The notes beneath the pieces are model-generated. The model worked only from the letters and a program-made list of their open reading frames with translations. It made no database searches and was not told where the DNA came from. Source: Acidimicrobiales bacterium (GTDB lineage: Bacteria > Actinomycetota > Acidimicrobiia > Acidimicrobiales > Iamiaceae). From it: DNA of 64,000 nt. How positions within the stretch are numbered: position 1 is the first letter of the stretch; each line of letters opens with the position of its first letter. This document shows positions 1 to 15,971 of this stretch, piece after piece. Made by a program: the position numbers and the translations under genes. The stretch lies in the NCBI GenBank assembly GCA_020439505.1, contig JAGQSO010000001.1, positions 1 through 64,000 of the forward strand, written 5' to 3'.

Positions 1-3000
1 AATGAGGTGCCCAGCCTGCTTTCAGGGAAACCTCACTCTCGTTGTGACCAAGCTCCCGCCACCCCTGGAACGATCCCTCTGGACCGGGGTTGGCACGAAC
101 CCGCAGCTCGGTACCCTCCCACCAGCCTGCTCTACCGTTCACATCGCGGCAGTTGGGTGGCGATATAACCGAGACCGTTCCGGGACCCTCTGCGGTCAGT
201 CTGGGAGCGGCGAGACAGGACCTTCCGACCAGCGCGACGAGGGAGGTCGGGCCGGTGAGGACCACCTTGATCGAGGATCCGGTCACCCCGGGCCGACCCT
301 CCCACCCGAACAACGACGCACCATGGTACGAGCCGCCAACGACAAGGTTTCGTGACTCGCTCCGCGGGGTGGCGTTCACCGTCACCTCGGTACCCCACTC
401 GAACCACAACCCGCTAGGCCCACAGTTCGGCCGGGGGTCCGTCCAGAAGTCGACCGTACGGGAACCCCCGTGGATATCCGTGTAGCCGAGGGTGAGCGGT
501 ACACAGTCCACCGAGAATGACGCCCTGACCGGGGCCATGCCGGCGTGAGCCCGGACCGTGATGGTTGAGACCGGCCCCTGTCCGGTGCTCCACCCTGTCA
601 ACGTGTGGTACGGGCCAGCGGGAACGGCTCGAAGCGCCACCGTGGTCGCGGTGAGGTATCCGGTTCCGGCGCCGCAGTTCGGTGCGGTCTCGACCAGCAC
701 GGTCCCAGCGTTGGCGGGCGTCGCGCCCACAACGAGTCGGTGGCAACCGCGGGGCGTACCCTGAAGCAGGACTTCGGCGGGATGGGCAGCCGCGCTACCC
801 AGGTACATCACTCGGATCCAGCTGGCAATGCCGTCCGCGCTCGACGGGAAAGTCACATCACAGCTACCAACTCGGGCGGCAACCGTGCAGGCCACACCGT
901 TGGGCGTCCACACCTGGACCAACCCGTCGTCGGCCTGTGTGGTCCATCGGACCGAGACCGGCTCGCCCACCATCCAGGCATCCGGTCCCGGGATCGTCGA
1001 TGCGGCCAATCGGGGGTCCTTCTGGGACACCCACACCGGTAAGCGGCGAGTCGCAGCTTCGAATGAAGGGTCGCCCGGATAAGCGGCATCGAGCCAATGC
1101 GACCCCGACGTCGACCAGACCATGGAGCAGGAACCGGTCGTTACATCGTGAATCGTGCAGGTCATCCCGTCATCGCTGGAGATCAGGACAGGGCCGATCG
1201 GTCCCCCCTGAGGGAACCAACCAGCGAAGGATGCCGTGACCTTTCCAGCTTCTCCCACCACCAATTCGTGAGGATCAATGGTCAAGTTCAGTGCTACCGG
1301 CTGTCCCCCTACCACCTGGTTGAGCGTGGCTGAGGACCCCATGAATCCCGGCGTGGGGACGTACACGGCTTGAACGATGACCGTCCCGCGTTGAAGATCG
1401 CCGACGGTTACCGATGCTCGACCCGTGGCGTCGAGCGCAACCGGATCCAGGGTGCGGTCTCCGATCGTGAACACCACTTGGCCCGCGGGTGACGGGGCGT
1501 CGCTGGTGTTGGCTCGGACCGAGACGGTGAAGGTCGCCGGTCGGCCGGCGATGACGGGGTAGGTCTCAGCGGTGATGGCGGTGGTCGTAGCGACGGCCTC
1601 CACCACGACCACGGTCGAAGCGGCCGACGCGGTGTGGGAGGTATCACCCGAGTAGCCCGCGCTCACCAGGTGGCTGCCGAAGGGGAGCGCAGCGGTGAGG
1701 GTGGCGACCCCGTCGACGAGAGCGGTGACCCCCAAAACGCCGCCGGCGTAGGAGAAGGTGACCGTACCTGTGGGTCCCGGGCCTCCCGAGACCCTGGCCA
1801 TCAGGGTCACGACGCCTCCGAACGGGACAGTGGGTGGCGTCGCGGTGAGCGAGGTTGTGGTGGTCGCCGGACCTACCGGGACCGGTGACGCGGTCGACGT
1901 GCTGGCGGTGTGGTCGACATCACCGCTGTAGGTGGCGGCAAAGGCATGGTCCCCCACCTCGGGCACCACGGTGAACTCGGCATGACCGGTGGCATCGACG
2001 GCAACGACCGCGATCACCGTGTCGTGATCGGTGAACGTCACCGTTCCGGTCGGGATCAACCCGGTGGACCCGGTCACCAGGGCCCCGAGCGTGACCGGCT
2101 CACCGGCCACCACACTCGCCGGCGCGGCGGTCAGATTCAGGGTGGTAGCGGCCTGGACGACACCGAAGGAGAGCGAACCCGACGTGGCCAGGTAGTCGTC
2201 GTCACCGCTGTAGGTCGCGACCAGCAGATGGCTCCCCACCGACACCGTGGAGGTGGACACCGATGCCGTTCCACCGCCGTCGACAGAAGCGGACCCGATG
2301 ATCACCCCGTCAACGGAGAACTGCACCGTGCCCGTAGGTGCGGTGCCAGCGCTCGATGCGATCGCGGCGGTGAAGGTCGTGACCGCCCCGCGTACCACCG
2401 GGTCCATCGACAAGGTGAGAGAGAGCGAGGTGGCTACCGGGTCGACTCCGTATTGGATGCGGCCGATCGACGCCAGCCGGTCGGTATCCCCTCCGTAGCG
2501 GGCCTCGATGGCGTGGTTCCCGCCCCCCAGCACAATGGAGAACTGGGCGCGGCCAGCCCCGTCGAGCGTCGCCACACCGACCGAGGCTCCGTCGACGACC
2601 AACTCGACCGTTCCGGTGGCAGAGCCGCTGCCGGGGGAAACGGTGTCGACTTCGACGGTGAAGGAGACCGATGCCCCTGAACTGCCCGGCGACGGACTCG
2701 CTTGGATGGTTACCGAGGTCGCGGCGCGCTCGACCATGTGATCGACGGGCGAGGAAACCGCAGCACCGAAGGAGAGGTCGCCGCTGAACTCGGCGGTGAC
2801 GGAGTGGAGACCCACCGCGAGGGTGGAGATGGTCAATGCTGCCCTACCCGCGCCGTCGAGGGTGACCGAACCAAGGGGAGAACCTCCAGCCCGGAAGATG
2901 ACGACACCCGTCGCTAGGCCACCGGTCTCGGTGGTGACATCGGCGGTGAAGGTGACCGGCTCTCCCCTCACCGTGTCGGTCTTGTCAGCCGAAAGGGCGA

Positions 3001-6000
3001 CCGTGGCACCCGCCGGGCGCACCTCGTGGCTCACCGGGCCCGCGCTACTCGTCGCAAATCCCGTGCCCGGTTCGAGGGCGGCGGTGATGACGTGGTTGCC
3101 GGCCGGGATCCTCACCTGGTCGAGGGCCGAGGTACCAGCGATGACGGGCGCGGTCCCCACCGCTGTCCCGTCGACGAAGAACCGAACCACACCGGTTGGC
3201 TCCACCGTCGAGTCCGGTGCGGTTACCTGGGCGGTGAATGTGAGGGGGGAAAGCGCCAGTGTCGGCCCGGCTGGGGCTACTGACAAGGCGGTCACGGTCG
3301 TAGCGGGGACGACGGTGTGGCGATGTAGATCGGAGGCTGTCGCCGAATGGGCAGCATCACCGTCATAGGCGGCGATGAGGTCACCCGCCCCTACCGGGAG
3401 CAGCGGGAGAGTGGCCGTCCCCGTTCCGGCGGCGTCCAGGGGAATCGATACGCCCGACCCGTCGATCTGGGCGGTGACGTGGACATTCCCGGTCGGTACG
3501 GGACCGGGGTACAGGGACGTGACGGTGACGGTGACCGAGGCCGGTTGCCCGTACTGGGCGGTGTTCGGGGTGGTGGAGACCGCAACGGTGACCGGCCGTA
3601 GCACCAAGTGGGTGAGCGGGTCAGCGGTGGCCGGTTCATGTTCGGCATCGCCCCCGTAGGTTGCACCGATCTCTCGCTCACCTGGATCGAGATCGCTGGT
3701 GGTGAAGTTGGCGGTACCCGACGGGTCGAGATCGACATCTCCGACCGGAGTCCCATCGACGGTGAAGGTGACGGTACCGGTCGGCGTCGATATGGCGGAG
3801 GAGACCGACGCCGTGAACGTCACCGGTACGCCCACCTCTGACGGACTGGACGGTCCGCTGAGACGAGCGGTGACCTCACCCGCGGTCACGTTCTGGGTGA
3901 TCGGGGTGGAAGTGCTTGGCAACAGGCCTCCACCTCCGCTGTAGGTCGCCGTGATCTCGTAGTCACCGATGGACAGATCCGCGACGGTGAGACGGGCCTC
4001 ACCCGCGGCGTCGACTACCACCGTTGCGAGCTCCACCGGCGCTGGTGGATCTACCGCGTCGGGGTCCACGAGCACCGCGGTGAAGGTGACGGTGCCGGTC
4101 GCAATCACGTCTTCGCTCGGAGCGTCAACCGTCGCTGTCAGGTCGATCGGGATACCGACCGGTGCCGACGGTTGGGCCGATGAAACCGTCACCGTGGTGG
4201 CGGGATCGACCTCATAGGCGCCCACATCGCAGCCTCCGCCCTGGGGTCGTGGGATTCCCCGCTGGTCCTCGGCCGGGCACAAGGCGGGATCAGCGGTATC
4301 CACCGCCGCTCCGTCGGGGTCGACCGGGACAGTCACTGTGACCCCACCGTGATTGCCGGGCATTCCGAGGCCGACATCACCGGGGAGCGAGTTCGGGCAA
4401 GATCCGTCCGAGGCAAGGTTGGAGGTGCCATCGGCAACGCCTTCGCACGCGAATCCCGTCCGGGGTTGCACGATCGAGTTGTCGACCACGAACAGTCCGC
4501 CGTTGTTCACCAACGAATGGCCGTCACCTCCCGAGAACGTGCTGTTGGTGATCGAGGCGCCACCCGATGAATAGACATCGGCGCCACCGACGGCGATTGC
4601 GGCCGCGTTGTCGAGGAAGGTCGAGTTCACGATGGTCACGCTGGCCCCGTGGTTCGCCACCGCTCCCCCGCCGCCCACCGTCGCCCGGTTGCTGCTCAAG
4701 GTCACCCGCTCGAGCCGGATCATCCCGGAGTACGCCAGTATCGCTCCACCACCGTCGGCATCTGTCGCCCGACCATCGGCCAAGGTGAGGTCATAGATCC
4801 GCAACGGTGACTCGGTGCCGGCGAGCGAGAAGATCCGGCTGGCTCCACCACCACTCACGGTCACGCTGCGACCAGAGCCCGAGATCTCGACGCTGCCCAT
4901 CACCGGAATCGGAGCGGCCACGGTGATCGTGCCGTCGACCGCGAACGTCACGCCAACGTCAAGACCCGACGCGCTGGCCGCTTCCTCCATCGCGGCCCGC
5001 AAGGTGCAGGTCCCGGCGCCGGTGCTGCACGAACCATCACCCGGGTTCGAGTCCGACGTGTCGCCCCGATCGTTCACCACGTAGGTGAGGTCGGGCAGGG
5101 CATCAGCCTTCGACGACGAGAGGGGGCTGAAGGCCAGCGAGGCGCCGAGGACGGCCATGGTGAGCACGGCCACCGCGGGAGAACGGAGCGCTGGCATCGG
5201 GCGGTCAGCCACCGGTTCTACGCCGGTCCGAGGTTGTTCCAGGTAGTAGACGGTGAGCGCGGCCAGCGGCAGCCCGGCCAGGGCCAGCTGCACCAGCAGG
5301 ACACCGATCGCTCCCGCCGTGTCGTTCCCCGGGAGCGGCGCGAGCAAGGCACTCACGATCAGCTCGGTCACCAGCCAAGCACCGGTGGCCAGGGTGACGA
5401 GGAGGGCGATCGACCACCAACTGGGTGACGGCTTGGTGATTCGGGCGCTCCTCCGAAGAGCACCAATGGGTCCCCCGGAGTCAACGATCGCGGAGGGCAG
5501 GGCAAGCGCTGATCGGATCGTCCACCAGATCGCTCCCGCCAACGGAACGACTACCAGGGCGGACCTCCGGGCGCTCGGCCACGGCATTCGCGGCCACAAG
5601 TGGGCTGTCACCATGGCTGCCACCGACGGCACAACGAGAACCACCGAGGGGACCAGCAGACCCCGGGCGAAGGTGGCGCTCGCCAAGAGGAGGGTCGTTC
5701 CACCAGCGGCGACCCCGATGGTGAACATACGGCCGCGGCGCTCATGGCGAGCGAGCGACACCAGTGGTGTCAATACCAGGACGACGAAGGCTCCGACCGA
5801 CACCAACGGGGCCGCCACCACCAGAATCGCCCCAACCGCGACGTTCAAGGTGACCACGACACCGGCGACCGGCAGGCGTCGTATCGAGCGGGCCAAGGCT
5901 CGACGAAGTGAGATCTCGACACCGCTGAGGTTTTGGCGGGTCAGCTCAACGATTGCCCCGGCCGACACGGTCAGCGTCGCCAAGCCGACGAGAGTGGCGA

Positions 6001-6247
6001 TGGAGATCGACACGATGGACAGGGTCGTCACATCGTTGATCGGCCCGTCGTAGGGACCCGAGCCAAGACCCGACAGCGACCTGAGCACCGAGGGGAACGC
6101 CAGCAACATCGCCGCGGTGGCGATCAACCCCCAAGCGATCGCACCCCCATACCTCGGGATCTGACGCGGGTAGAAGGTCAGCAGCGTCCGCAGCGATGCT
6201 CGCCACCCACCCCCGGTTCCGGTACTGCGTTCGCCCCGTTGCCCCAC
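1..6247 (-). CDS. Giant membrane-anchored surface protein with CSLREA, beta-helix and Ig-like repeats (C-terminus outside the window)
   Basis: One open frame runs from a GTG at 6247 to the window edge (at least 2082 codons); an in-frame TAA lies at 6263-6265. Residues about 1-345 are hydrophobic, with roughly 8-9 membrane segments and an ALRRSARIT-type motif like GDPD/DUF7847 membrane domains. Residues about 351-385 look like a complete signal peptide (MPALRSP..., then a hydrophobic stretch, then SKADALP). A CSLREA-type motif (CTLRAAMEEA, about residue 413) and right-handed beta-helix sequence follow. From about 4215 to 1020 there are about eleven Ig-like modules of 90-100 residues, each with a PTGTV.F core and an ending like YSGD. 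The last part resembles InlB B-repeats (VRANPG...FQGW). It is probably an adhesin or surface-display protein held in the membrane. Alternatively, two proteins are made, with internal starts at 5209 (GTG) or 5197 (ATG). The frame is seen directly; the topology and function are inferred. Confidence 0.8.
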   Translation of the reverse strand, partial: MGQRGERSTGTGGGWRASLRTLLTFYPRQIPRYGGAIAWGLIATAAMLLAFPSVLRSLSGLGSGPYDGPINDVTTLSIVSISIATLVGLATLTVSAGAIVELTRQNLSGVEISLRRALARSIRRLPVAGVVVTLNVAVGAILVVAAPLVSVGAFVVLVLTPLVSLARHERRGRMFTIGVAAGGTTLLLASATFARGLLVPSVVLVVPSVAAMVTAHLWPRMPWPSARRSALVVVPLAGAIWWTIRSALALPSAIVDSGGPIGALRRSARITKPSPSWWSIALLVTLATGAWLVTELIVSALLAPLPGNDTAGAIGVLLVQLALAGLPLAALTVYYLEQPRTGVEPVADRPMPALRSPAVAVLTMAVLGASLAFSPLSSSKADALPDLTYVVNDRGDTSDSNPGDGSCSTGAGTCTLRAAMEEAASASGLDVGVTFAVDGTITVAAPIPVMGSVEISGSGRSVTVSGGGASRIFSLAGTESPLRIYDLTLADGRATDADGGGAILAYSGMIRLERVTLSSNRATVGGGGAVANHGASVTIVNSTFLDNAAAIAVGGADVYSSGGASITNSTFSGGDGHSLVNNGGLFVVDNSIVQPRTGFACEGVADGTSNLASDGSCPNSLPGDVGLGMPGNHGGVTVTVPVDPDGAAVDTADPALCPAEDQRGIPRPQGGGCDVGAYEVDPATTVTVSSAQPSAPVGIPIDLTATVDAPSEDVIATGTVTFTAVLVDPDAVDPPAPVELATVVVDAAGEARLTVADLSIGDYEITATYSGGGGLLPSTSTPITQNVTAGEVTARLSGPSSPSEVGVPVTFTASVSSAISTPTGTVTFTVDGTPVGDVDLDPSGTANFTTSDLDPGEREIGATYGGDAEHEPATADPLTHLVLRPVTVAVSTTPNTAQYGQPASVTVTVTSLYPGPVPTGNVHVTAQIDGSGVSIPLDAAGTGTATLPLLPVGAGDLIAAYDGDAAHSATASDLHRHTVVPATTVTALSVAPAGPTLALSPLTFTAQVTAPDSTVEPTGVVRFFVDGTAVGTAPVIAGTSALDQVRIPAGNHVITAALEPGTGFATSSAGPVSHEVRPAGATVALSADKTDTVRGEPVTFTADVTTETGGLATGVVIFRAGGSPLGSVTLDGAGRAALTISTLAVGLHSVTAEFSGDLSFGAAVSSPVDHMVERAATSVTIQASPSPGSSGASVSFTVEVDTVSPGSGSATGTVELVVDGASVGVATLDGAGRAQFSIVLGGGNHAIEARYGGDTDRLASIGRIQYGVDPVATSLSLTLSMDPVVRGAVTTFTAAIASSAGTAPTGTVQFSVDGVIIGSASVDGGGTASVSTSTVSVGSHLLVATYSGDDDYLATSGSLSFGVVQAATTLNLTAAPASVVAGEPVTLGALVTGSTGLIPTGTVTFTDHDTVIAVVAVDATGHAEFTVVPEVGDHAFAATYSGDVDHTASTSTASPVPVGPATTTTSLTATPPTVPFGGVVTLMARVSGGPGPTGTVTFSYAGGVLGVTALVDGVATLTAALPFGSHLVSAGYSGDTSHTASAASTVVVVEAVATTTAITAETYPVIAGRPATFTVSVRANTSDAPSPAGQVVFTIGDRTLDPVALDATGRASVTVGDLQRGTVIVQAVYVPTPGFMGSSATLNQVVGGQPVALNLTIDPHELVVGEAGKVTASFAGWFPQGGPIGPVLISSDDGMTCTIHDVTTGSCSMVWSTSGSHWLDAAYPGDPSFEAATRRLPVWVSQKDPRLAASTIPGPDAWMVGEPVSVRWTTQADDGLVQVWTPNGVACTVAARVGSCDVTFPSSADGIASWIRVMYLGSAAAHPAEVLLQGTPRGCHRLVVGATPANAGTVLVETAPNCGAGTGYLTATTVALRAVPAGPYHTLTGWSTGQGPVSTITVRAHAGMAPVRASFSVDCVPLTLGYTDIHGGSRTVDFWTDPRPNCGPSGLWFEWGTEVTVNATPRSESRNLVVGGSYHGASLFGWEGRPGVTGSSIKVVLTGPTSLVALVGRSCLAAPRLTAEGPGTVSVISPPNCRDVNGRAGWWEGTELRVRANPGPEGSFQGWRELGHNESEVSLKAGWAPH

Positions 6248-6284
6248 GGAACAGACAATTGTTTACACCGGTTACTACTGTCAA
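6248..6284 (-). promoter_or_regulatory. Candidate promoter/operator before the giant surface protein gene
   Basis: Read on the minus strand, a TTGACA hexamer (6284-6279) overlaps the stop codon of the TetR gene. It is followed by two short palindromes, ACCGGT (6267-6272) and ACAATTGT (6255-6262), before the GTG start. No good Shine-Dalgarno sequence is visible. The site could be a binding site for the adjacent TetR protein, but no binding motif for it is known. Confidence 0.3.
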
Positions 6285-7006
6285 GGGTCGGTGGTCACAT
6301 CGCCACTCATGGTGAGAAGACCGGCGATCATGCAACGGAGAGCGGCCTCGAAGCGCGTGTCGTCATCGATGCCGAACCGAACCTCGGCGAATGCGACCTG
6401 GCTTGGGGTTGCCCCCTGCTCCTCCAAGAACGCGAAGACATCGCGCCGATGGCTCTGCATGTCTCGGCCGAAGTACTTCGATGAACGCTCCCGGTCCGCC
6501 GTGGCCGAGATCGATCCGAATCCCAGCGTCTGGATGCCCCAGTGGGCCAGAGCCACATCGGGAAACCCACAAGCCTCCAGCACTCCCGACGTGAGGGTCA
6601 CGTAGTGCCAGAAGCGTTCATCGGCCCGAGGAACCGACGCTGCCAGGTGGAACAGGTCCGGATAGTTCAGCCACACCCGCCTGATGGTGAGGTTCACCTG
6701 CACCAGCCATTCGAGAAGGTCACCGTCGAAAGCAGGTACCTCACCGTCGATCTCAGACCAAACCCCGTGCACCATCAACTCGACGAGGGCCGCCTTGTTG
6801 GCGACGTGGCGATACAGGGCCGCGTGGGTGACCCCCAGATCATCGGCCAGTCGGCGCATCGACAACGCATCGAGTCCCACCTCAGCCCGGATGGCCATCG
6901 CCACGTCCACGATCTCATCGAGCTCGAGCGGGCTGACTCGAGCGATCGCGGGGCGCCCGCGGGATCGACGAGTTGTCTCGGGAACAGGCTTCTCGTCGGC
7001 CGGCAT
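6281..7006 (-). CDS. TetR/AcrR family transcriptional regulator
   Basis: A 241-residue protein with an N-terminal TetR helix-turn-helix at about residues 25-75 (LSMRRLADDLGVTHAALYRH, then VANKAALVELMV). A ligand-binding helical domain follows, as in TetR repressors of the TetR_C_33-like type. The ATG at 7006 is the first plausible start. The gene sits 33 bp upstream of the giant surface-protein gene on the same strand, so the two may be co-transcribed or the regulator may control it. The LLM oxidoreductase gene lies 140 bp upstream. The ligand and regulon are unknown. Confidence 0.88.
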   Translation of the reverse strand: MPADEKPVPETTRRSRGRPAIARVSPLELDEIVDVAMAIRAEVGLDALSMRRLADDLGVTHAALYRHVANKAALVELMVHGVWSEIDGEVPAFDGDLLEWLVQVNLTIRRVWLNYPDLFHLAASVPRADERFWHYVTLTSGVLEACGFPDVALAHWGIQTLGFGSISATADRERSSKYFGRDMQSHRRDVFAFLEEQGATPSQVAFAEVRFGIDDDTRFEAALRCMIAGLLTMSGDVTTDP

Positions 7007-9330: not shown

Positions 9331-12045
9331 TCACAGCCCTGAGGCCAGCAGTGACTGCCCATCAGGATCCCCGGCCCCGGCGGGCACGCCGTCGTCGGAA
9401 CCCACGGCACCATGAGGATGGAGCCGGACCACATGGGCTCCTCCGATGCCTGCGAAGCGACCCGGGTTGCAGGTGAGGACCACCACCTGGCATCGCCGTC
9501 CAGCCAGCGAGATGGCGGCGGCCATCTGGGTGAGCCGGGTGGCATCGGTCCACCCCAGGGTGTCGTCCAGGATCACCGGGGCACCCCCGTCTTCGGCCAC
9601 GAGCATGGCGCAGGCGAGGCGGGACAGAACTCCGAGTTGCTCGCGTGCGCCGGTGCTCAACTGGTCGAAGGAGACGGTGATCCCGTCCAAGGTCCGGGTC
9701 ATGACCTGGAGGTCGTCATCGAGGGCGAGTTCCAGGCTGGGTCCGAAGACCAGGCGAGCGAGCTGTTCGAGCTTGTCCCTGAAGGGAGCCTGATAGCGGG
9801 CACGAGCGGCAGCCCGTCGCGCCGCGAAGGTGTCGTGCAGGAGCAGTGCCACCGCGGCACGGTTCTCGATCCGTTCGAGCTCGGCTCTCAGGTGGCCCCG
9901 CTCGGTGATTGCGGCGTCGAGGCGATTAGCCAGACCGTTCTCGCCCTGGGCTTCCAGTACTGCGGAAAGGGCATCGTGCTCGCGTTGATTGGCGCGGATG
10001 CGCTCGGCCCCGCTCTGGCGAGCAGTGCGGGCGTTCCCCGTCACCTGCCTGAGCATCTCGAGATCGGCACGGTTCAACTCGGCGTTGTGAGCCGACCAAC
10101 GGGACTGCGCGACCTCGAGGGCCGCTCGTGACGCCTCCAACCCGCCGGTCAGGTCGAGATCGCGGTACATCTCCCTGGCCTGAGCAAGGTCTGTCCTGAT
10201 GCGGTCCAAGGCATCACGTTCGGCGTCGACCTGGGCGGCCAGCCCGGCACTGTTGACCGCCGCCTCACTCATGGCGGCGGTCGCATCGGCCAGCGCCGAC
10301 TGCACCTCGGCCAGCGCCGATCGCAGGTCGGCCAAGTGCCCCTCGGCTCGACGAGAGATCTCCTGGGCGGCATCCAGATCGATGGGGATCTCTGGCTCGG
10401 CCGTGCGCTCCGCCTCATAGGTAGCGATGCGCTCGGTGTGACGGGTGATCTTGCGTTCGAGGTCTTCGAGGGTGAGGTCGCGGAGGTCCTGTTGAATTCG
10501 GCCTGCCGCCCCGGAGTGGATCCGTTCCGCTTCGCTCCGCGCCGCGGCCGCGGCCCGAGCCTCGACCAGGTCGGCCACGCCGTAGTCGGCGCAAAGCCGG
10601 GCCAAGTCCGCTTCCGCCCGCTGGAGATCGTCGTGGAGGACTTTGGCCTCGGGTCCGACCTCGATGTTCAAGACAACGGTGCCGGGGATCGAAACCTCGG
10701 AGTCCTCGACCACCAAGATCTGGCGGGAATCACCGACCGCCAGTCGGTGGGCCGAATCCTTCGACACCACCTCCAGGTCGGAGAGGGCGGTGGCGGTAAG
10801 CCGCACGGCTCCACCCGCGGCGCTGGCCTCCGCTCTGACCTGTGCCAGGTAGGCCGTCTCGAACTCGGCCATCACCTTCGAATCGATCCGATTGGACTCC
10901 AGCACCTCCTCGGCGCCAGCCACGGCCTCGAGCTCCAGGCGGACTCGGTCACGTCGTTCGATGAACTGCTCGACCTCGATCTGTTGACGACGGAAGTCGG
11001 TGTCGCCGACAGCGCCGCGGAGGACCTCCTCGGCCGCAGTGACCGACCGGGCGGCCGCCTCGTACTCGTCGCGGAGGGTCGAAACCACCCGCCCGGCCTC
11101 GGCCGCGGCCGGTTCGGCGCTGGCCCGCCTCTCCTCGGCCGCGGTTAGGCGGGCCGACTGGTCCAGCTCCTTGGACACCAGTTCGTCTCGGGCGTCTCGA
11201 AGTTGAACCCATCGCTGGTGATCGGCGCTGGCCGCGTCCCGTTCGGCGGCCAGCTGGGCCACCTGACGGCCCAGCTCCTCGACGACGCTGAGTCGAGCCT
11301 CCTGCTCGGCTTCGCCCTGTTCGAGCTCTCTCTGACGAACCGCCAGCTCGATGGCCTCAGCTTCGAGCCGGGCTATCCGATCGGTCCGGACCTCGAGCTC
11401 CCTCAGCTCACCTTCGATGACGCGGACGCGGTCCTCGGCCTCACGAACCCTGTCGGCAAGCTGTTTGCGGTCCTTGCTGGCCTGGCCGGTGGCCGTCCAG
11501 TACTGGTCCCGTTGATCGACGATGCGGTCCCACAAGGCGTCGTTGTGGAGGTCGTCCTGCCCATCACCCGCCGCCAGGTCCAAAGCGCGCCCCAGCGAAG
11601 GCACTGCGTAGTCGACCTGCTCAAGGTCGGCGCCTTGTTCCAGGCGCAGCGCCCGCCAGAGGTCACCGTCCAAGGTCTCGGCCAGGATTGCCTGGACCCG
11701 TTCGTGGGCTTCCCGGCCGGTCAACTGGGCCCGCTCGGGTTCGAGCACCGTGAGGGTCGTCTGGGCCTGACGGAGCCAGCGCTTGGCGTAACAGATCCGG
11801 TAGGGGCCGGTGGTCAGATCCACCTCGACTTCCGGACCGACGTCGCGGTGCACCGGCTGAACCGCCTTGATCCGCCGGTTCTTCGTGTCGTCACGGAACT
11901 CGAACAGGAGCGAGAGCGCCTCGGCCAGGGAGCTCTTGCCCGCCTCGTTGTCTCCTTCTATGACGGTCACGCCCACCGACGGAAAGGTGACCTCGGCCGA
12001 GGTGACCCCCCGGAAGTTCGTGATGGTGAGCCGGTTGATCTTCAC
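9331..12045 (-). CDS. SbcC/YhaN-like AAA ATPase of an SbcCD-type pair
   Basis: A 904-residue Rad50/SbcC-type SMC-like ATPase. The N-terminus has a Walker A (GDNEAGKSS, about residues 32-40). Long charged coiled coil covers about residues 180-750. The C-terminus has an ABC-like signature (STGAREQLG) and a Walker B (VILDDTLGWTD). I find no CxxC zinc hook in the coiled coil, unlike SbcC and Rad50, so it is closer to YhaN. It starts with GTG at 12045, overlapping the stop of the nuclease gene by 4 nt (GTGA), so the two are translationally coupled. Role: DNA end processing or repair with the partner nuclease. Confidence 0.85.
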   Translation of the reverse strand: MKINRLTITNFRGVTSAEVTFPSVGVTVIEGDNEAGKSSLAEALSLLFEFRDDTKNRRIKAVQPVHRDVGPEVEVDLTTGPYRICYAKRWLRQAQTTLTVLEPERAQLTGREAHERVQAILAETLDGDLWRALRLEQGADLEQVDYAVPSLGRALDLAAGDGQDDLHNDALWDRIVDQRDQYWTATGQASKDRKQLADRVREAEDRVRVIEGELRELEVRTDRIARLEAEAIELAVRQRELEQGEAEQEARLSVVEELGRQVAQLAAERDAASADHQRWVQLRDARDELVSKELDQSARLTAAEERRASAEPAAAEAGRVVSTLRDEYEAAARSVTAAEEVLRGAVGDTDFRRQQIEVEQFIERRDRVRLELEAVAGAEEVLESNRIDSKVMAEFETAYLAQVRAEASAAGGAVRLTATALSDLEVVSKDSAHRLAVGDSRQILVVEDSEVSIPGTVVLNIEVGPEAKVLHDDLQRAEADLARLCADYGVADLVEARAAAAARSEAERIHSGAAGRIQQDLRDLTLEDLERKITRHTERIATYEAERTAEPEIPIDLDAAQEISRRAEGHLADLRSALAEVQSALADATAAMSEAAVNSAGLAAQVDAERDALDRIRTDLAQAREMYRDLDLTGGLEASRAALEVAQSRWSAHNAELNRADLEMLRQVTGNARTARQSGAERIRANQREHDALSAVLEAQGENGLANRLDAAITERGHLRAELERIENRAAVALLLHDTFAARRAAARARYQAPFRDKLEQLARLVFGPSLELALDDDLQVMTRTLDGITVSFDQLSTGAREQLGVLSRLACAMLVAEDGGAPVILDDTLGWTDATRLTQMAAAISLAGRRCQVVVLTCNPGRFAGIGGAHVVRLHPHGAVGSDDGVPAGAGDPDGQSLLASGL

Positions 12046-13178
12046 GAGGCACTCCCGGTCAGACGGACGAGAAGAGACATCGCCTCCTGGGCGCGGACGG
12101 CGTCGGGACCGGACCCTTCGGCCATGGTCTGCAGGTCATCCAGGGCGTCGCGGGCGAAGCCCGACAGCCCCAGCGAGTCGAAATCGGCCTGGTCAGGCAG
12201 GACGATCAGGTCGATCCGGCGTTCCCAACCCTGTAGCGATGCCAGCAGGTCGGCGTGGTGGGTCAGCACGGCGTCGAGCCGGGCCTTCTCGGTGAGCGAC
12301 AGCTGGCCGACCAGGGCCAGCTTCACGATCGTGCGGGCCTTGTCGGTGAGCGAGTCGAGGAAGGTGTCCAACAGGTCCACATCGCCATGACCGGTCAGAT
12401 CGGCCTCGTGACGGACGAAACGCCAGGTTCCGACCTGGTGGGGGCGGACGTCGACCCGGCCGGAATCGTCCAGGTCGACGACGAGCACATGACCCGGGTC
12501 GATCTCACGGAAATCGGTGGGCTCGGGCGCACCGGAGTACCTGACACACCCGGTGCCCCCGACGGAGGTGGCCGAGTGGCGGTCACCCAAAGCCACGTAG
12601 TGAACCCGTCCGTCACCCAGCGCCGCCTCCACCGAGCTCAGAGCGACCAGGGCGGGATTCAGTTCATCGGGCGACATCGCGTCGACCGCGCCGTGCCCGA
12701 CGACCACCCGCCGGGTGCCGTCGGCGGTGAGACCCGCCACCGCCTCCCCGACCAGATCGACGAGAGGGCGCTTGGATGTCCAGGGGGCAGCGACCAACTC
12801 GATCCCCGGTGCAACCGTCAAGGGTTCCTCCGAGGTCAGCACCACCACGTTCGGGGGCTGGTGAGAGGTGAAGGTCGGCGACCGGAACACCGACGAGGCG
12901 TCGAGGGGGTCGTGGTTACCCGGCAGCAGGTAGAAGGTGACCTCAGGTGAGGCCGCCATGGCGTCGAGAGCTCGCACCACCACCTGGCGCTCGACGTGGT
13001 TGGTCTCGAAAACATCGCCGCACACCACCACGAACCGGCAGTCCTTCTCGATGGCCAGAGCACCGATGGTGCGGATCACCTCGATCCGGGCCGCGCTGAA
13101 GCGTGGCTGGGCGTCAGCATCGAGGAAATGCCTGGTCATTCCGAGTTGCCAGTCGGCGGTGTGGATGAAGCGGACCAT
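12042..13178 (-). CDS. SbcD/YhaO-like metallophosphoesterase (DNA repair exonuclease)
   Basis: A 378-residue calcineurin-like phosphoesterase. Metal-binding motifs are in order: FIHTADWQLG (D-x-H site), VVCGDVFE (GD), LLPGNHDP (GNHD) and VVVGHGAVD (GH), then a GDRHSA site. This is the Mre11/SbcD arrangement. The ATG at 13178 puts the first motif at residue 5, as in the family; the longer open frame upstream runs into the promoter of the divergent gene. It is the first gene of the operon with the SbcC-like ATPase. Confidence 0.86.
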   Translation of the reverse strand: MVRFIHTADWQLGMTRHFLDADAQPRFSAARIEVIRTIGALAIEKDCRFVVVCGDVFETNHVERQVVVRALDAMAASPEVTFYLLPGNHDPLDASSVFRSPTFTSHQPPNVVVLTSEEPLTVAPGIELVAAPWTSKRPLVDLVGEAVAGLTADGTRRVVVGHGAVDAMSPDELNPALVALSSVEAALGDGRVHYVALGDRHSATSVGGTGCVRYSGAPEPTDFREIDPGHVLVVDLDDSGRVDVRPHQVGTWRFVRHEADLTGHGDVDLLDTFLDSLTDKARTIVKLALVGQLSLTEKARLDAVLTHHADLLASLQGWERRIDLIVLPDQADFDSLGLSGFARDALDDLQTMAEGSGPDAVRAQEAMSLLVRLTGSAS

Positions 13179-13268
13179 GTACCGAACGTACCGAGGCCCT
13201 GTGACAACGAAGCGGACCCCTCCCGGGTCACCTACCCTTCGGGCCAGCCAACCGGAAGGGGAACAACC

Positions 13269-15971
13269 GTGTCGAGGCTTCTGCCGTTCAGGGATCTGCG
13301 ACGCGTCGGCGCTGCGCTGGCGGTCACCGCCAGTGCCGCCACGCTGATCTCCGGGCTCATCCCCATGAGCGCCGAGGCGGCGCGGACGACCAGTGCCTCG
13401 CCATCGAGGGCCACCGCCGCGGCGGCAATGACGGCTCGGGCCGCCGCGACGGTCGACGACGCCGTCGCCGAACAGGAACCGTTCATCTGCACCACCGAGT
13501 ACAACGGGCTGGGCCAGCCGTCGGTCGACAACCAGGACCGCCGGGGGACACCGGTGTACCCCCTCGACGGTGCGGGCGCCCCCGACCGGGCCCAGGATCC
13601 GCTCGGATGGAGCCGCCGCTGCCAGGTCTCCGACGTCGTCGAGTACCGGTATCGGACCACCGACGGTCAGACCAGGACACTGGCCCCGGGCGCGTCGGCC
13701 CTGCCCGCCGACATCGCCATGCTCGACGTCGACGACATGATCGGCGCCGACCGCCTCGACACCGACGGCGCCTCCCAGATCCCCTACCTGATCCGCTATC
13801 AGCGTGGAACCCTTCCCGAGAACCGGTTCCTGTACAGCATCGCCATGCTGGTCCCGTTCTCGGAGTACCAATCCGGTGTAGGCGCCGACGGTCCGTGGGA
13901 CGACAGCCACTGGAACGGCCGGCTCCTCTACAACTTCGGGGGTGGCGTCGGAATCGGGCACAGCCAGGGTGACCTGAGCACCGGCGCATCGTTGATGCAC
14001 GAGGCGCTGCGACTGGGTCACGCCGTCGTGTACTCCAGCGGGACCCGCACCTCAACCCACTACAACCTGATGCTGGGTGGCCGCACCGCAGTGGAGCTCA
14101 AGGATCGGTTCGTGGCCGACCACGGCTCCCCCCTCTACACGGTGGGGATCGGCGGGTCCGGCGGCGGCATCCAGCAGTACGTGTACGGACAGAACCACCC
14201 CGGGCTGCTCGACGCCGCCATCCCCCAGTACTCCTATCCCGACATGACCACCCAGACCATCAACGTGGGTGACTGCGAGCTGCTCGAGCGCTACATGGAC
14301 GTCACCGACGGCGACAACCCCCGTTGGGACGACTGGGACAACCGCCAGATCATCCAGGGCCAGAACACCATCGAAGGGTTCACCTCGGAGTGGCAGGCCC
14401 GTACCGGTGCCACCGGCTCCAGTGAGTGCATCGAAGGCTGGCGGGGCGCCACCCCTCTGGCCATGAACCCCACCTTCGGACTAGCGGTGGGCATGGACGA
14501 GGTGATCATGCCCTTCGTCGGTGAGCTGCTGGCCAAGCTCGGTGCCGGCCAGCCGGTGTACCCCGACGACTTCCCCGACCTGGGGCGCCTGCTGCGCACC
14601 CACGAAGACCCCGCCCAATGGGTGCAGTGGACCCACTGGGCCGACGTGGAAGAGGTCTACGGAACCGATCCGACCTCTGGTTACGCCCAGGTTCCCTGGG
14701 ACAACGTGGGCGTGCAGTACGGGCTTCGGGCGGTGGCCGACGGCTCCCTGACCCCGGCCGAATTCTTGGACCTGAACGCCAACGTCGGGTCGTGGAAGGA
14801 ACCCGAGGACAACGTGCCAGAGAGCTGCGGCATGGTGCGGGCCATGGTCGGTGACGACCTGGGGGCCTTCGCCGGACTGATCGGGCTGTGCGAAGGCGAC
14901 GAGCTCGACCAGTACTCGGCCCGCCAGATGAACCTCGCTCCCGACGCCGACACCCCCGCCCCCCGTCGGACCGCGGATGTCGCCGCCATCACCAACGCCT
15001 TCACCAGCGGATTGGTGTTCAGCGGTGCGATGCCCCGGGAGATCCCGATCATCGACGCCCGCCACTACCTGGAGGATCAGCTCGACATGCACAACGTGCA
15101 CCAGTCGTTCGTGATCCGCGAACGAATCCGGCGAGCCGAGGGCGACGCCGACAACCAGGTGATCTGGTTCCTCGACGCCCGGCCGGCCGAGGACGAGGCC
15201 GCCACCGATGCCCTCCACGACGAGGGCTTCCGGGTCATGGACCAGTGGGTGCTCAACATCCAGGCCAACCCGTCCCGATCGGTCGCCGACAACAAGCCAA
15301 CCGGGGCCGTCGATCGGTGCTGGAACACGAACGGCACCGAGATCGCCCGGGGCGACGACGTCTGGGACGGGGCCGAGGAACTGGTGGTGTCAGGTCAGGG
15401 CGCGTGGACCGACTCGGCACCCGACGAGGTCGACGGCGTGCGCGTCGGAGCCTGCGCCGCCGCCTTCCCCATGCACTCGACCTCGCGGGTGATCGCCGGC
15501 GGCCCGATCACCAACGACGTGTACAAGTGCCACACCAAGTCGGTGTCCCAGTCGATCGCCGACGGCGACTACGGCGTGTGGGTCCCATCGGCCGATGAGC
15601 AGTCCCGTCTGGAGGAGATCCATCCCGAAGGGGTGTGCGATTACTCCAAGCCCAGTGTCGGCTACCCCGACGGTGGTGTGGTGGCCCCGCCGACCCGGCC
15701 GCCGACCACCGCCCCACCGGCCACGACGACACCCTCGTCGACCACCACCAACCCGATGACGACCTCGACGACCTCGACCACCTCGGCCCCGTCGACCAGC
15801 ATCACCACACCCGGCACCCGCCAACCCGACCAGCCCTACCGGCCCCGGGACGACGGCCACCGGGACGCCCTGGCCCGAACCGGGCTGGGGGTGGTGGGTC
15901 TGGTGGTCAGTGGCCTGGTGCTGGCCGGCAGCGGCTCGGCCCTCCGCCGGGGCGCTCGACGTCGCCGCTGA
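13269..15971 (+). CDS. Secreted, cell-wall-anchored DUF6351 family protein (tannase/alpha-beta hydrolase-like)
   Basis: A 900-residue protein. The GTG at 13269 follows a GGAAGGGG Shine-Dalgarno. Residues 1-38 are a signal peptide ending near SAEA. The body matches DUF6351: NGRLLYNFGGG, a nucleophile-elbow-like GIGGSGGGIQQY, and a conserved Cys/Trp-rich middle. The C-terminus has a Pro/Thr/Ser-rich linker of about 60 residues, then LARTG, a hydrophobic helix and an Arg tail, which is an actinobacterial sortase (LAxTG) signal. It should be displayed on the cell wall as an esterase-type enzyme; the substrate is unknown. No sortase gene is present in this window. Confidence 0.82.
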   Translation: MSRLLPFRDLRRVGAALAVTASAATLISGLIPMSAEAARTTSASPSRATAAAAMTARAAATVDDAVAEQEPFICTTEYNGLGQPSVDNQDRRGTPVYPLDGAGAPDRAQDPLGWSRRCQVSDVVEYRYRTTDGQTRTLAPGASALPADIAMLDVDDMIGADRLDTDGASQIPYLIRYQRGTLPENRFLYSIAMLVPFSEYQSGVGADGPWDDSHWNGRLLYNFGGGVGIGHSQGDLSTGASLMHEALRLGHAVVYSSGTRTSTHYNLMLGGRTAVELKDRFVADHGSPLYTVGIGGSGGGIQQYVYGQNHPGLLDAAIPQYSYPDMTTQTINVGDCELLERYMDVTDGDNPRWDDWDNRQIIQGQNTIEGFTSEWQARTGATGSSECIEGWRGATPLAMNPTFGLAVGMDEVIMPFVGELLAKLGAGQPVYPDDFPDLGRLLRTHEDPAQWVQWTHWADVEEVYGTDPTSGYAQVPWDNVGVQYGLRAVADGSLTPAEFLDLNANVGSWKEPEDNVPESCGMVRAMVGDDLGAFAGLIGLCEGDELDQYSARQMNLAPDADTPAPRRTADVAAITNAFTSGLVFSGAMPREIPIIDARHYLEDQLDMHNVHQSFVIRERIRRAEGDADNQVIWFLDARPAEDEAATDALHDEGFRVMDQWVLNIQANPSRSVADNKPTGAVDRCWNTNGTEIARGDDVWDGAEELVVSGQGAWTDSAPDEVDGVRVGACAAAFPMHSTSRVIAGGPITNDVYKCHTKSVSQSIADGDYGVWVPSADEQSRLEEIHPEGVCDYSKPSVGYPDGGVVAPPTRPPTTAPPATTTPSSTTTNPMTTSTTSTTSAPSTSITTPGTRQPDQPYRPRDDGHRDALARTGLGVVGLVVSGLVLAGSGSALRRGARRRR

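Follow-up and report, generated by a model that had tools for sequence, protein, structure and literature searches.

Organisation of the locus

The analysed window is a stretch of 64,000 nucleotides, and at its low-numbered end the minus strand carries one long open frame, which starts with a GTG at 6247 and runs down to position 2. The frame comprises 2,082 codons with zero stops, in agreement with the original prediction of an uninterrupted frame reaching the window edge, and the nearest in-frame stops upstream of the GTG lie at 6265-6283. The features of the frame and of the gene preceding it are the following:

6281-7006, minus strand: TetR-family regulator, ending 33 bases before GTG 6247
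5212..6247, minus strand: N-terminal polytopic membrane domain (about residues 1-345), GPDPase_memb/YciC-like, with the motif ALALPSAIVDSGGPIGALRRSARITK..WW
5205..5220, minus strand: other-frame stops before the inner ATG 5197 (TAG at 5220, TGA at 5207)
5099..5197, minus strand: signal peptide MPALRSPAVAVLTMAVLGASLAFSPLSSSKADA with its own ATG 5197 (residue 351) and a signal peptidase I site ADA|LPD, assigned by inspection
4979..5083, minus strand: CSLREA-like segment CTLRAAMEEA, a weak TIGR04214 match
4208..4978, minus strand: right-handed beta-helix-like stretch and choice-of-anchor Q module (residues 624-680)
1000..4207, minus strand: Big_3_5 Ig-like array with 11 significant stretches (Pfam)
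2..999, minus strand: cysteine-bearing C-terminal repeats with GW motifs (PNC...GW), cut by the contig end

Base 1 of the window is also base 1 of contig C195 (132,369 bases); therefore, the 3' end of the frame is missing from the assembly and not just from the window. A search of the other contigs of the genome found neither a 3' continuation nor a paralogue of the frame. The source assembly is the draft of an actinobacterial (Acidimicrobiales) genome, in 288 contigs with 5% contamination, and the gene lies at a contig end.

Both halves of the frame are coding. Specifically, codon scores are positive in all 240-base blocks from 6247 to 3848, while over the same interval the other frames score zero or negative in nearly every block, and codon usage remains coding-like, smooth and in frame on either side of the junction between the two halves. 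Judged from how often stops occur in the two other frames of the strand, the 350-codon open stretch that precedes the signal peptide would arise by chance with a probability of about 2e-4.

The junction DNA reads ...TACTACCTGGAACAACCTCGGACCGGCGTAGAACCGGTGGCTGACCGCCCGATGCCAGCG... and, on inspection, contains no homopolymer. Just upstream of the inner ATG, the other two frames each have a stop, TAG 5220 at 23 bases and TGA 5207 at 10 bases from the start codon. According to stop counts, chance alone would account for each of them with a probability of roughly 0.2-0.3, and by themselves they are only mildly informative. A single-base indel just upstream of ATG 5197 would turn the frame into a standard two-gene layout, and loss of an in-frame stop would account for a merger equally well.

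The gap between the TetR gene and GTG 6247 contains a TTGACA hexamer and the palindrome ACAATTGT, which are possibly the promoter and operator of a membrane gene with a leaderless start. A promoter scan returned zero sites, leaving the TTGACA of this gap unscored.

The N-terminal membrane half

The assignment of residues 1-345 to a multi-helix membrane protein is borne out by both the hydrophobic segments and the coding-like codon usage. A Kyte-Doolittle analysis revealed seven strong hydrophobic segments ahead of the CSLREA part, the seventh being the inner signal peptide; on inspection, 8-9 membrane helices likely precede that peptide.

When compared with this front part, the Pfam model GPDPase_memb (PF10110) gave 8.7 bits (E 0.89), short of its cut-off of 29.6. 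We also built a PF10110-like profile from 17 proteins of the same order, with which the motif region (residues 231-304) scored 18.1 bits; about 3,000 shuffled sequences, made in three ways, gave 12.5 bits at most. In addition, hhalign aligned the same PF10110-type motif, with a probability of only 20%. The ALRRSARIT-type motif noticed in the original prediction corresponds to the RRS motif of the PF10110-like family. Helix pattern and the motif alavPsaivd.gg.igALRRSaritk..WW are common to the window protein and to GPDPase_memb/YciC-like proteins. The window protein differs from them in scoring below the Pfam cut-off, in lacking a recognisable counterpart of the C-terminal YxDLRVRKEGFDLELLA motif of the PF10110-like relatives, and in the Ig module that comes after the membrane part. 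Taken together, these similarities suggest that the front part is likely a very divergent, remote member of the GPDPase_memb/YciC type.

Homologues of the membrane half were sought in 60 relatives, in 397 genomes belonging to the order, in the contigs of the genome collection and on plasmids, and none was found. The matches inspected in the membrane-domain search, namely murA, an NrfD-like membrane protein and unrelated frames, were due to chance. An AlphaFold2 model of residues 1-381, calculated without relatives, had a pLDDT of 45, too low for the model to be used.

The signal peptide and the secreted half

A signal-peptide-like segment had been proposed to follow the membrane part, and inspection locates it at residues 351-383, directly before the CSLREA-like domain but internal to the frame. 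The Ig repeats described for the remainder of the protein are unambiguous: Big_3_5 (PF16640) matched with 455 bits (E 2e-139) in 11 stretches, well above its cut-off, and within these eleven repeats the window protein shows no difference from other Big_3_5 surface proteins. The choice-of-anchor Q model NF041518 scored 57.2 bits against a cut-off of 25 (E 1.5e-15). The CSLREA label itself is weaker, since TIGR04214 reached 15.1 bits, or 15.7 in the genome search, where 25 are required. No Pfam model matched the C-terminal repeat region at 2-999, with its paired cysteines and PNC...GW motifs.

A comparison with CSLREA/choice-of-anchor Q proteins nevertheless shows a common layout beneath the sub-cutoff CSLREA score, consisting of signal peptide, D..D..PGDG.C..C[ST]LRAA segment, beta-helix, anchor-Q motif and cysteines with their spacing. 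The residues D, D, P, G, G, C, C, L, R, A and A mark the columns that do not vary across 17 sequences, that of the window included, and the spacing from the cleavage site to D..D..PGDG.C..CTLRAA is similar to that of the stand-alone proteins L033, L109 and L110. In relatives, the CSLREA-like segment directly follows an ordinary or a lipoprotein signal, as in L033 ('...DSASAAVEHQLTVDTT') and L110 ('...VAVAAAADHLVVDTVG'). What sets the window protein apart is that its frame does not begin with the signal peptide.

In two genomes of the same genus, the CSLREA proteins L025 and L027 carry lipoprotein signals (LTGC, LAAC), whereas the signal of the window protein is of the signal peptidase I type. 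At L025 (4777-7386 and beyond, genome G002), the similarity of a CSLREA lipoprotein runs past an in-frame TAG, which may reflect a disrupted gene or a fault in the assembly.

The two halves in other genomes

We then compared the arrangement of the two halves across other genomes. In all 55 CSLREA/beta-helix open frames of the same order, at most two hydrophobic segments precede the match. A scan of the genome collection with a narrower alignment added 80 CSLREA-type loci from many phyla, in which up to three such segments were found, scattered over long frames; in both sets the number is mostly 0-1. The two sets share a few contigs, which brings the total to about 130 loci, and a polytopic N-terminus was present at none of them. 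Conversely, the 30 PF10110-like loci of relatives encode membrane proteins, mostly with proline/glycine-rich tails, and none shows similarity to Ig repeats. The architecture seen in the window did not recur in another genome at any of the roughly 130 CSLREA loci and 30 PF10110-like loci compared.

Nor is a pair of neighbouring polytopic and CSLREA genes conserved: a polytopic frame lies directly upstream at 4 of 89 loci, without any pattern. In 12 genomes of the genus, synteny with the upstream TetR gene revealed no locus orthologous to that of the window.

These comparisons bear on several points of the original prediction. Separate homologues, which it had named as evidence against a fusion, are found for the Ig half. 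As to the membrane half, the only relatives found are remote PF10110-like ones, and none of these is fused. Its alternative that the loss of a stop joined two genes is consistent with the comparative evidence, while that of a natural fusion, in which a membrane domain holds a long stalk, finds no support in any relative. The claim of a novel combination is not supported either: both halves are of known kinds, and their union occurs in one draft genome only.

Origin of the fused frame

In all relatives examined, the Ig-repeat protein is encoded by a gene of its own. The frame is therefore probably the outcome of a recent merger of adjacent genes or of a sequencing error, and not a novel type of protein. 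That two adjacent genes have been joined is suggested by the preserved signal peptide, by a module boundary that falls at the expected gene ends and by the nearby stops in other frames. Our leading explanation, to which we give about an even chance, is a lineage-specific, recent merger of this sort in the genome itself, through stop loss or a small indel. The ancestral two-gene state would be read from the Ig half and from remote relatives only, because a stand-alone orthologue of the membrane half was not found.

The junction may instead be an error of assembly or sequencing, with two ordinary adjacent genes in the cell joined on paper by a wrong, missing or extra base near 5200-5240. We regard this as a tentative explanation that still carries appreciable weight. 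The draft quality of the assembly and the position of the gene at a contig end speak for it, as does the lack of a fused relative among the CSLREA loci examined; moreover, a single indel located after the last membrane helix but before the ATG would bring the membrane gene to a stop at 5220 or 5207. Such an error, however, has no homopolymer at the junction to explain it and must be reconciled with the smooth, in-frame codon usage on both sides, and a random chimera would rarely join two modules in frame and exactly at their natural ends. In a further reading, ATG 5197 alone is used and the upstream frame is not translated as a gene. The lack of a clear ribosome-binding site before GTG 6247 and a weak GGTGG 11 bases before ATG 5197 agree with this idea, which we consider very improbable: residues 1-345 show coding-like codon usage, a membrane-helix pattern and the PF10110-type motif, and a missing ribosome site at the GTG also fits a leaderless start. 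Leaderless starts are reported to be extensive in the actinobacterium Mycobacterium tuberculosis (PMC3898074).

A genuine product of selection, either a polyprotein cut into a fixed 1:1 pair or an uncut, membrane-held adhesin, appears unlikely. Slightly more doubtful still is a selected fusion in which the polytopic domain serves as a permanent anchor (or as a sensor or channel), the Ig stalk stays uncut and the signal-like inner helix acts as the last transmembrane helix. The frame is indeed intact over more than 2,000 codons, and the charge distribution in the N-terminal loop and in the one preceding the last helix is compatible with a stalk-out topology; yet the signal peptide still begins with an ATG of its own, its ADA|L cleavage site is a standard one, and the arrangement is shared by none of the roughly 130 CSLREA loci or the 30 PF10110-like loci.

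If the merger is real, the most likely working form is a polyprotein. The ribosome would make a single chain, of which the membrane part would insert with its C-terminus inside, as suggested by the positive charge of YLEQPRTGVEPVADRPMPALRS, the loop that precedes the inner signal peptide. This peptide would then re-open Sec export and move the Ig stalk out, after which signal peptidase I is predicted to cut at ADA|LPD, a site judged by eye, thereby restoring both original products. Cells would tolerate the merger because of this cleavage. Independent starts at ATG 5197 may supply additional free secreted protein.

A partial precedent comes from actinobacterial three-helix Rieske proteins (PMC5449189), in which, as in the window protein, several Sec-inserted helices are followed by an inner signal-like helix that exports a domain. 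In such a multi-helix Rieske fusion, the exported domain was made releasable by placing a signal peptidase I site behind the last helix. This precedent was obtained by engineering and depends on Tat, and the Rieske proteins form a conserved family with a cofactor domain, whereas the signal peptide of the window protein is of the Sec type and has a peptidase site, and the protein is not part of such a family.

A real merger would offer a natural snapshot of the process, the retained signal peptide rendering the joined protein harmless. It would also allow one to ask whether signal peptidase I of bacteria cleaves a signal peptide that comes after many membrane helices. An artefact, instead, would be a caution for the mining of domain architectures in draft genomes.

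Other genes in the window

Further along, a gene for an SbcC-like ATPase adjoins one for a calcineurin-like, SbcD-like phosphoesterase (9331-14021, minus strand). This region overlaps a DUF6351 frame (12996-15971) on the opposite strand, probably because the start of the phosphoesterase has been called too early.
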